This document shows positions 12,775 through 16,236 of a DNA stretch of 64,000 nt, one piece after another. Position 1 is the stretch's first letter, and each line of letters opens with the position of its first letter. The translations under genes were made by a program, and so were the position numbers. A model generated the notes under the pieces. That model saw nothing but the letters and a program-made list of their open reading frames with translations, had not been told where the DNA came from and did not search any database. The stretch is from Acidobacteriaceae bacterium (GTDB taxonomy: Bacteria > Acidobacteriota > Terriglobia > Terriglobales > Acidobacteriaceae). The stretch lies in the NCBI GenBank assembly GCA_028283625.1, contig JAPWKG010000026.1, positions 62,001 to 126,000 of the forward strand. Reading direction: 5' to 3'.

Positions 12775-15700
12775 ATGTCGAAGGAAATTTATATCTCCAG
12801 CACGCCGCAGGAAACGCGGCTAGCGATCGTCGAAAGCGACGCACTCTCGGAGATTTACTACGAACGTGAGAACGAATACACGCTTGCGGGCTCCATTTAT
12901 AACGGGCGCGTAACCCGTGTGCTGCCAGGCATGCAGTCGAGCTTTGTCGACATCGGCCTGGAGCGCGATGCCTTCCTGTACATCACGGACTTTATGGAAG
13001 AGGCCGGTGAGTCGGCCGAGTTTGAAGGCGAACGGTCTTCGGGCGGTAGCGGAAATGGTGGTGGCGGTGGCCGTCGCCGTGGTCGCCGTGGCAACGGAGA
13101 GCGTCCGCGCGTGGAAGGCGAAAGCACCGAGGAAACCACGGATCTGCAGGCTGAGGACGGCGGCGAAGAGTACGCTGCGGAAGGCTCGCCGCGTGAAGAG
13201 GAAGAGATTGGCGAAGGTGCTCCGGGGGCCGATGGCAGCCGTCGCTGGCGTGGCCGTCGTGGTCGCCGTCGTGGCCGTGGTGGCGATCGTGGCAACGAGC
13301 GCGGCGCAGCCGGTCAGGCGCAGCCTTCGGAGGAGCCGCAGGTGGTCGTGGAGGGCGGCTATGACAATGCGGAGCCGTTTGCGGCTGCGGAAGAGCCACA
13401 GGCCGTTGAGGAGTCCTCGTTCGAGGCGCCGCGTCGTGAAGGGGGCCGTCGTGAAGGCCGTCGCGGCCGTCGTGACCGTGACCGTGGCGAGCGCCGCGAG
13501 CGTGGTGAACGCGCCCAGGCTGAGCCGCAGGCAGAGAGCCTTGCGTTTGAGGCAGCTGCAGGGGAGCCGTTCATTCTGCCGGGCGAGAGCCTTTCGAAGT
13601 ATCGTCCGCGCGCTGAAGGCGAGACCGACGAACCGAAGGAAGAGCTGAAGGCCACTGCGCCGGTTGTGGATGCGTTTGTCGCCGCTGGTTGGGACGGCGG
13701 TCTGGTGCTTCCCGGTGAGACGCTGCGTTCGCGCGGTGCTTCTTCCAGTGCGGCGCCGGCTGCGGATGTTGCCAGCGATGAGGATATTCGCCGTTACGCA
13801 CGCGCGGAGCGTGGTGAGGCTGCTGAGGGTGGCCGTGATCGCCGCCGTGATCGCGATGGCCGTCGTGGCCGCCGCGAGCGGGCCATTGATCCGGCTGAGG
13901 CGGTTCTGCCGGCGGTGACCAGCCAGCACGAGCCCGAAGCCACTGTGCTGCCGCTCACCGACGATGCGCCTTCGTTTGAAACGGCGGAGACCGAAGAGCG
14001 TTTTGCCGAAGCGCACGCTCATGAGCAGGACACCGCGCATGCCGAGTTTCTGGCACAGCGCCAGCAGGCACAGGCCGAGGCGGAGCTCGAGGTCGAAAGT
14101 CTGGTGATTGACGCTGCACCGGCCGAGCCTGCGGTGAGCGAAGAGGTTGTGGAAGCCACGGAGGAGTTTCACGAAACCGTTGCCGAATACGAGCCGGAAG
14201 AGAATGCTTCGGCATCGTTCCGCGTAGACACGGGCGAGACGCGTGAGTTCCGTCAGAGTGCACCGGCAGAAGAGCCTGCGGCGGAAGAGCATGAGTTTAC
14301 CTCGGTGCAGTCGTCGGGCGAGATGCTCTCTGAGCCGGTGGTGGTCGAAGAGGGGGCGGAGGAAAGCTCTCCGATCGAGCACGAAGGCGCGGTGCTGGAT
14401 GTGCACGCGGGCGAGAGCGAATCGGCTCCGCTGGCAGCGCAGCAGCACTTTGAGCCGGGGGAAGGCGATCTGGAGGAAGAGCTGCTCGACGAGGAGGACG
14501 ACGGTGTTCTCACGCTGCAGGCTTCCGACTTTGACGACACGGAAGAAGAGACGCTGGAAGCTGCCCCCGAGCTGGGTGCGCTGCTGAACGACATGTCGCT
14601 GGACGCGCTGGTGATTCCGGATGTGGCCGAGGACGATCTCGACGAAGAAATGGACTTCGAGGACGAAGACCTTGAAGAGGACGAGCTGGACGAAGGCGAA
14701 GAGCTTTCGGGATCGGATATCAGCGAGGCCGAGGAAGAGGCCTTTGTTGCCAGCGATGAGTTTGAAGAGTCTGACGATGCGGTGATTACGGAGAACCCGG
14801 AGCGCCGTGAGCGCAGCGGCCGTCGTGGCCGTGGCCGCCGTGGCGGTAGCCGTGGCGCCCAGCGCGAACGGGCGCAGGTGGAGAGCGCACCGGAGCGCAG
14901 TGAGCCTCGCGAGGAGCGCAGCGAAGGCGGGGAGCCGCGCGCAGAGCGCAGCGAGCGCCGCCGTGATCGTCGCGGAATGGCTGGTTCGCGTTCCGGCGGC
15001 CGTATGTCGCGTGCCTCGGCACAGTTGACTAACCTGCCGGCGATCAGCGACCTGCTGAAGCCCGGGCAGGAAGTTCTGGTGCAGATTGCCAAGGAGCCGA
15101 TTGCGAAGAAGGGTGCGCGTATTACCTCGCACATCGCTCTTCCGGGACGCTTCCTGGTCTTCATGCCGACCGTGTCGCACGTAGGTGTTTCGCGCAAGAT
15201 CGAGTCCGATGGCGAGCGCCGTCGTTTGAAGGAGATTCTGCTCAGCGAGCGTGGCGAGGCTTCAGGAGGCTTCATCGTGCGCACGGCCGCGGCCGGTGCA
15301 AGCGAAGAGGAGTTGCGCAGTGATCTGCGTTTCCTGTTGAACCTGTGGGCCGATATCAAGCAGCGCTCCGAGGCGTCGAAGTCTCCGGCGCTGATCTACC
15401 ACGATCTCAATCTGGTCGAGCGCATCCTGCGCGATCAGGTCACCGATAACTTCTCGGCGATCTGGGTAGATACGGAAGATGCGTATGAACGCGTGCTGCG
15501 CTTCCTGCAGCGCTTCCAGCCGAGCCTGATTCGCCGCGTGAAGCTGTACACCAAGGAGACGCCGCTGTTTGAGCAGTTCGGTATCTCCGAGGAGATCAAC
15601 AAGGCGCTGCGTTCCAAGGTGTGGCTGAAGTCGGGTGGATCGATCGTGATCAACCAGACCGAAGCGCTTGTCGCAATCGATATCAACACGGGCAAGTACG

Positions 15701-16236
15701 TTGGAAAGACGGCTCGCCTGGAAGACACGATTGTGAAGACGAACCTCGATGCGATCCCCGAGATCGTTCGCCAGATTCGTCTGCGCGATCTGGGCGGCAT
15801 CATCGTGATCGACTTCATCGACATGGACGAGCGCAAGAATCGCCAGAAGGTGCTGCAGGCTCTGGAAGAAGAGCTGAAGAAGGATCGTGCTCCGTCGAAG
15901 GTTCTGCAGTTCAACGACTTCGGTCTGGTGGCGATTACCCGCAAGCGCGTGAAGCAGTCGCTGGAGCGTACGCTTTCGACGACGTGCTCGATCTGCGCCG
16001 GTACCGGCATGGTCAAGAGCCCGGTCACGGTCTGCAACGAGATCTACATCGAGCTGCGCAAGATGCACAAGCATCTGGACAAGGGCGATGTGATGCTGCG
16101 CGTGCATCCTGAGGTGGTCAAGCACCTGAAGCTGAACAACGCCAAGTGGCTGCAGGAGATGGAAGAGATGTCGAGCAAGACCATCCTGGTCAAGAGCGAT
16201 CCGAGCCTGCATCCGGAGCAGTTCGATATTCACTAA
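12775..16236 (+). CDS. Ribonuclease E/G family protein with a very large charged insertion inside the S1 domain
   Basis: 1153 aa; N-term 'YISSTPQETRLAIVESDALSEIYYERE...GSIYNGRVTRVLPGMQSSFVDIGLERDAFLYITD'; from residue ~753 'ISDLLKPGQEVLVQIAKEPIAKKGARITSHIALPGRFLVFMP', 'LVAIDINTGKYVG', 'LGGIIVIDFIDM', Zn-link 'CSICAGTG'. Confidence 0.95.
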   Translation: MSKEIYISSTPQETRLAIVESDALSEIYYERENEYTLAGSIYNGRVTRVLPGMQSSFVDIGLERDAFLYITDFMEEAGESAEFEGERSSGGSGNGGGGGRRRGRRGNGERPRVEGESTEETTDLQAEDGGEEYAAEGSPREEEEIGEGAPGADGSRRWRGRRGRRRGRGGDRGNERGAAGQAQPSEEPQVVVEGGYDNAEPFAAAEEPQAVEESSFEAPRREGGRREGRRGRRDRDRGERRERGERAQAEPQAESLAFEAAAGEPFILPGESLSKYRPRAEGETDEPKEELKATAPVVDAFVAAGWDGGLVLPGETLRSRGASSSAAPAADVASDEDIRRYARAERGEAAEGGRDRRRDRDGRRGRRERAIDPAEAVLPAVTSQHEPEATVLPLTDDAPSFETAETEERFAEAHAHEQDTAHAEFLAQRQQAQAEAELEVESLVIDAAPAEPAVSEEVVEATEEFHETVAEYEPEENASASFRVDTGETREFRQSAPAEEPAAEEHEFTSVQSSGEMLSEPVVVEEGAEESSPIEHEGAVLDVHAGESESAPLAAQQHFEPGEGDLEEELLDEEDDGVLTLQASDFDDTEEETLEAAPELGALLNDMSLDALVIPDVAEDDLDEEMDFEDEDLEEDELDEGEELSGSDISEAEEEAFVASDEFEESDDAVITENPERRERSGRRGRGRRGGSRGAQRERAQVESAPERSEPREERSEGGEPRAERSERRRDRRGMAGSRSGGRMSRASAQLTNLPAISDLLKPGQEVLVQIAKEPIAKKGARITSHIALPGRFLVFMPTVSHVGVSRKIESDGERRRLKEILLSERGEASGGFIVRTAAAGASEEELRSDLRFLLNLWADIKQRSEASKSPALIYHDLNLVERILRDQVTDNFSAIWVDTEDAYERVLRFLQRFQPSLIRRVKLYTKETPLFEQFGISEEINKALRSKVWLKSGGSIVINQTEALVAIDINTGKYVGKTARLEDTIVKTNLDAIPEIVRQIRLRDLGGIIVIDFIDMDERKNRQKVLQALEEELKKDRAPSKVLQFNDFGLVAITRKRVKQSLERTLSTTCSICAGTGMVKSPVTVCNEIYIELRKMHKHLDKGDVMLRVHPEVVKHLKLNNAKWLQEMEEMSSKTILVKSDPSLHPEQFDIH

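Follow-up and report, generated by a model that had tools for sequence, protein, structure and literature searches.

A 676-residue charge-blocked disordered insert in the S1 domain of an acidobacterial RNase E/G carries short conserved motifs and may serve as a degradosome scaffold

RNA-degradosome scaffolds are usually drawn as RNase E tails, and the disordered scaffold of the enzyme in other bacteria is mainly a C-terminal or N-terminal tail. Voss et al. (2014) described diverse, charged, disordered inserts of about 50–150 aa in the S1 domains of alpha-proteobacterial and plant enzymes; in the Caulobacter crystal structure, an insert helix and acidic side chains sit in the RNA site, the Caulobacter S1/5′-sensor fragment that contains the insert binds RhlB, and deletion of the insert from Arabidopsis RNase E is reported to lower activity (PMC4245959). 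S1 insertions about 50 aa long have been described as typical of alpha-proteobacteria (PMC5436854), and the phase separation of Caulobacter and Sinorhizobium RNase E has been attributed to charge patches (PMC12691583). An older survey gave the enzyme of the Fibrobacteres/Acidobacteria group as 511 aa (PMC3071783). Our literature search found no paper naming both "Acidobacteriota" and "RNase E", and the few containing "Acidobacteria", "RNase E" and "degradosome" mentioned the phylum once each.

The window, the whole 64,000-nucleotide stretch of acidobacterial DNA that was analysed, carries an RNase E/G gene downstream of PBP2 (mrdA-like) and rodA genes. The gene and its conserved domains are as follows.

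12775..16236, + strand: RNase E/G gene, 1153 aa, a single uninterrupted open reading frame without stops
12880..13002, + strand: N-terminal half of S1 (aa about 36–76, strands 1–3), from alignment to E. coli RNase E, invariant columns and a relative's model
15031..15129, + strand: C-terminal half of S1 (aa 753–about 785), from alignment to E. coli RNase E and a relative's model
15139..15951, + strand: 5′-sensor and DNase I core (PF10150, aa 789–1059), including D969 and D1013, from domain match and alignment
15982..16230, + strand: C-terminal thioredoxin-like domain of RNase E/G (PF20833, aa 1070–1152), from domain match

The protein scored 345.8 bits against PF10150 (cut-off 25.5; E=2e-103), which places it in the RNase E/G family, and 483 bits against TIGR00757, above the curated cut-off of 326; with the RNase G equivalog NF008689 (NCBIfam) it reached 487.7 bits, below the cut-off of 594. 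In an alignment of 87 homologues, the CxxC zinc link (C1071 and C1074) was invariant, as were D969 and D1013, the equivalents of the E. coli catalytic acidic residues D303 and D346. The window protein stops at PF20833 (aa 1152 of 1153) with no disordered C-terminal tail; of the characters that define BR-body proteins, disorder C-terminal to the catalytic domain is absent, and long disorder with alternating charge patches is found in the insert. It resembles RNase G (E. coli rng) in its core and in having no C-terminal tail, and both genes are linked to cell-shape genes, mreCD for E. coli rng and PBP2 and rodA for the window gene. It differs from RNase G in scoring under the RNase G cut-off and in its S1 loop, which holds 676 aa, whereas 17 residues were counted by the same method in E. 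coli RNase G, close to the ~20 given in the sequence-only reading that preceded this analysis. An antisense open reading frame of 786 aa (window positions 12820–15180, − strand) covers much the greater part of the insert on the opposite strand; it seems more likely to be a side effect of the high GC content and low complexity of the coding strand than a real gene.

A phmmer search of solved structures matched the protein to E. coli RNase E catalytic-domain structures as two stretches, aa 4–76 and 753–1084, which are separated by about 9 residues in E. coli RNase E. When the insert was removed in silico, the halves gave a single uninterrupted S1/5′-sensor alignment with E. coli RNase E. On the basis of these two alignments we delimited the insert as aa 77–752, bearing out the earlier proposal that S1 is split by ~675 residues at 13000–15030. 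The insert and its charged blocks are located as follows.

13003..15030, + strand: charge-blocked disordered insert, aa 77–752, 676 aa, from alignment, composition and AlphaFold
13072..13110, + strand: Arg/Gly block 1, RRRGRRGNGERPR, aa 100–112, from sequence
13450..13512, + strand: Arg/Gly block 3, aa 226–246, from sequence
13834..13881, + strand: Arg-rich block, aa 354–369, from sequence
13984..14097, + strand: possible long helix, aa 404–441, pLDDT about 73–84 at its centre, from AlphaFold
14629..14718, + strand: acidic tract, aa 619–648, with a core of net −15 in 25 residues, from sequence
14803..14874, + strand: closing Arg/Gly block adjoining the second S1 half, aa 677–700, from sequence

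Disorder-promoting residues make up 72% of the insert and order-promoting residues 16%, compared with 49% and 37% in the core. The insert contains 27% D+E and 12% K+R (Glu 20%, Arg 12%), carries a net charge of −96 and falls below the Uversky folding boundary. Its opposite charges were more segregated than in 1000 shuffles (z 6.8), a segregation comparable to the charge patches of Caulobacter and Sinorhizobium RNase E. In the AlphaFold model of the window protein, pLDDT across the insert was mostly below 50, with the possible helix at 404–441 as the exception. Composition, the Uversky boundary, charge segregation and pLDDT thus all agree with the initial description of the insert as disordered and charge-patterned, and the Arg/Gly and acidic blocks quoted in that description lie where it had placed them.

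The same model gave no confident fold for the S1 halves. Because it was too uncertain to place them, we modelled instead L135, a relative with a 173-aa insert and 58% core identity. The L135 model had a mean pLDDT of 81, and of about 95 in the S1 strands, with strands 41–50, 55–59 and 66–69 preceding the disordered insert and strand 259–266 following it. Foldseek matched L135 to the isolated E. coli S1 domain (1sn8_B; target TM 0.85, rmsd 3.4) with a match that spans the insert, and to the Caulobacter S1/5′-sensor structure (4oxp; target TM 0.78). These matches across the insert suggest a single S1 fold in the window protein's family, in which the insert would form the loop between strands 3 and 4, as in S1 inserts of the Caulobacter kind; this arrangement is modelled for L135 and predicted by homology for the window protein. 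The proposal that the halves fold as one S1 therefore holds for the relative, while the window protein's own model leaves its S1 without a confident fold. The halves probably pair as in other RNase E enzymes, with the core kept active.

Since the alpha-proteobacterial and plant cases are published, S1 inserts are a kind already known, and the earlier generalisation that disorder in characterised RNase E lies outside the core was incomplete (PMC4245959). Outside the Acidobacteriota we measured a handful of genes, sampled via RNase E/G genes in a plasmid collection, and found same-loop inserts of 65 aa in Tistrella, 152 aa in Pseudorhodobacter, 167 aa in Sinorhizobium and 178 aa in Shinella; in these four alpha-proteobacteria, 540–840 residues (catalytic core and C-terminal region) follow the 5′-sensor match. 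The alpha-proteobacterial and plant chloroplast inserts resemble that of the window protein in S1 position, charged residues and predicted disorder. The closest counterpart, Caulobacter crescentus RNase E (PDB 4OXP), has its charge-rich, predicted-disordered insert in the same S1 loop near the RNA site, but this amounts to about 56 residues beyond the E. coli loop compared with about 667 in the window protein. In addition, alpha-proteobacterial RNase E has a long C-terminal scaffold, whereas the window protein lacks one. The C-terminal BR-body scaffolds of E. coli, Caulobacter and Sinorhizobium share with the insert long disorder, alternating charge blocks and short conserved motifs; however, they follow the catalytic half, whereas the acidobacterial insert lies within it, and the motifs are unrelated. 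What appear to be new are the size of the insert, the lack of a terminal scaffold, the single origin in Acidobacteriota and the short motifs.

An insert of this size could be produced artificially by a frameshift, a misassembly or a gene fusion, the first two of which the initial reading raised as well. However, the insert was present in all complete homologues examined from the window's family, many of them from one- or few-contig genomes, and in the named isolates Granulicella mallensis, G. aggregans, G. rosea, Edaphobacter modestus, E. lichenicola and Bryocella elongata. Many independent assemblies, among them those of cultured strains in one or few contigs, share this architecture; the reading frame has no stops and shows coding constraint: between the window gene and its 14 nearest relatives, dN/dS was 0.20–0.38 in the insert and 0.05–0.09 in the core, the insert figures being rough values because synonymous sites are near saturation. 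These comparative data refute an artefact, to which we attach a negligible probability. Judged by these substitution patterns, the insert is read in frame, translated and under constraint.

Among 142 Acidobacteriota homologues, the S1 loop measured 15–42 aa in insert-free genes and 91–945 aa in insert-bearing genes, the latter against the 65–178 aa of the four alpha-proteobacteria. In a tree of 86 homologue cores, built with the insert left out, one branch (support 100/99; 1 change) separated all 53 insert-bearing proteins from the rest, which is most simply explained by a single gain. A clade of distant paralogues (35–40% identity) has no S1 insert and a long Arg-rich C-terminal tail; on the strength of this tree we rejected the reading of its members L120–L126 as tail-bearing forms of the same gene. 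Near the end of the tail, the paralogues L120, L125 and L126, from other Acidobacteriota families, carry ELMPAA (in the contexts RSEELMPAATGG, RSDELMPAAQAG and ISNELMPAAVGA), possibly another docking motif. We discarded apparent N-terminal extensions of 200–600 aa in L111, L140, L112 and L120, which in our judgement are stop-to-stop read-through ahead of the true start. Only in the insert-free acidobacterial homologue L113 may an Arg-rich disordered N-terminal extension of about 100 aa, with MSGELKRRRRRGRRGGRGRGG, be true; it suggests that disorder is placed differently between lineages. One genome (G004) contained two full insert-bearing rne genes (L087 and L088) with differing inserts of 565 and 763 aa, possibly through duplication or a mixed assembly. 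Three metagenome assemblies titled Rhodanobacteraceae or Verrucomicrobia look mislabelled, since they carry Granulicella-type rne (L176, L181 and L186).

Mean identity to the window protein among its 65 closest relatives (the Granulicella/Edaphobacter clade) was 0.34 in the insert versus 0.92 in the core, and the diverged insert contains sharply conserved islands.

13210..13278, + strand: island GEGAPGADGSRRWRGRRGRRRGR, aa 146–168, mean identity 0.95 in the Granulicella/Edaphobacter clade
13567..13605, + strand: motif PFILPGESLSKYR, aa 265–277, of the LPGES[LI]x[KR]Y type, identity 0.91, from conservation
13693..13722, + strand: partial second LPGE copy, DGGLVLPGET, aa 307–316, identity 0.82 in the genus-level clade
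14536..14604, + strand: moderately conserved island DTEEETLEAAPELGALLNDMSLD, aa 588–610, with EETLEGAADLGTMLREMSID as the relatives' version

RRWRGRR was found in 64/65 members of the Granulicella/Edaphobacter clade, and an RQSAP island had 0.88 identity among the 65 closest relatives. We dropped RRWRGRR as a candidate for the alpha-proteobacterial PNPase-binding GWW peptide, which it resembles weakly. Of the 109 inserts that were 90 aa or longer, 90 contained LPGE[SRT][LIM]x[KR]Y, which never arose in 2000 rounds of shuffling; the motif patterns were counted in the very sequences that had supplied them, and the margin for LPGES is very large. Every one of the 65 genus-level clade members had the LPGES-type motif, as did the 12 others of the family (12/12). 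Among the class-level tree rows it took the strict form in 34/36, the other two reading LPGEFIAKY and LPGESLSKF, and it occurred in 0/17 of the remaining insert-bearing tree rows and was not seen in the four alpha-proteobacterial inserts. Searched as degenerate DNA, it gave 1–2 copies in 35 of 41 relatives' genomes, including 26/26 high-quality ones, and a reversed control pattern gave zero occurrences in the 41. Of the 39 places, 36 lay on the contig of the rne core, just 5′ of the core, with varying synonymous codons; the remaining 3, on other contigs, look like genes split at contig ends. By these counts the nine-residue motif appears nearly invariant and essentially rne-specific.

The sister clade (10 rows) has in place of the LPGES motif [FY][EQ]R[VI]xDDE-like repeats, also written [FL]ER[IV]xDDE, with 12 copies against 0.002 expected. 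The repeat was seen in seven inserts (L112, L114, L115, L118, L119, L129 and L131), several of which also have a common GEMLKDA and a closing RRGGRGRR block. In five further sequences (L061, L062, L076, L093 and L094), a second class-level motif, [FLM]PxxK[FY]A, follows the Arg/Gly box (for example GFPESKFA and NLPPSKYA); it is absent from the window protein.

The length range of 91 to 945 aa, the fast divergence of most of the sequence and the ease with which Arg/Gly and acidic repeats expand would all fit a low-complexity stretch that is tolerated and expands in a permissive surface loop and does little more than keep soluble. We regard this explanation as improbable, given a dN/dS of 0.20–0.38, one origin followed by retention in all complete genes of the clade, sharp conserved islands with identity up to 0.95, and an essentially rne-specific motif in 26/26 high-quality genomes. 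Short motifs within a diverged insert are the pattern expected of scaffold docking motifs.

We lean, with moderate confidence, toward the insert being a degradosome or RNP scaffold embedded in S1, whose Arg/Gly blocks would hold RNA and whose LPGES motif would dock one partner. The scaffold would take the form of a giant loop leaving S1 between strands 3 and 4, in place of a tail, and its alternating Arg/Gly and acidic blocks may favour multivalent, condensate-type association. LPGES[LI]x[KR]Y may dock one conserved partner, a decay factor such as a DEAD-box helicase or PNPase, which would be kept beside the RNA entry site, comparable to RhlB on the S1/5′-sensor region of Caulobacter RNase E. 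The genome encodes PNPase and several DEAD-box helicases; nothing ties either to the LPGES motif, and the insert contained no recognisable version of a known PNPase- or helicase-binding peptide.

The acidic tracts could also act as a gate, mimicking RNA over the S1/5′-sensor cleft until displaced by RNA or a partner and so tuning activity with no scaffold. The Caulobacter insert, whose helix and acidic side chains fill the RNA site (PMC4245959), offers a precedent, as do the net charge of −96 and the tract of −15 in 25 residues. However, the best-conserved parts are the Arg/Gly box and the LPGES motif, with the acidic tracts less so, AlphaFold gives the insert no packing order, and far fewer than 300–900 residues would suffice for a gate. 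A gate acting by itself seems unlikely to us, although gating and scaffolding are not exclusive.

Extended to the phylum, the scaffold interpretation would mean that Acidobacteriota moved the entire RNA-degradosome scaffold into S1 by one insertion that grew to 300–945 residues, with lineage-specific docking motifs and no terminal tail. We put this forward tentatively, at slightly under even chances. The motifs would then differ by lineage, LPGES[LI]xKY serving in the Terriglobia-type clade and [FL]ER[IV]xDDE in the sister clade, and partners and condensed RNA would be kept right where RNA enters the enzyme. Enzymes with the insert, enzymes without it and paralogues with a tail provide a natural comparison inside one phylum, and the near-invariant nine-residue motif makes the search for an acidobacterial degradosome partner directly testable. 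As the Acidobacteriota show, a complete-looking scaffold can sit within the RNA-binding domain.
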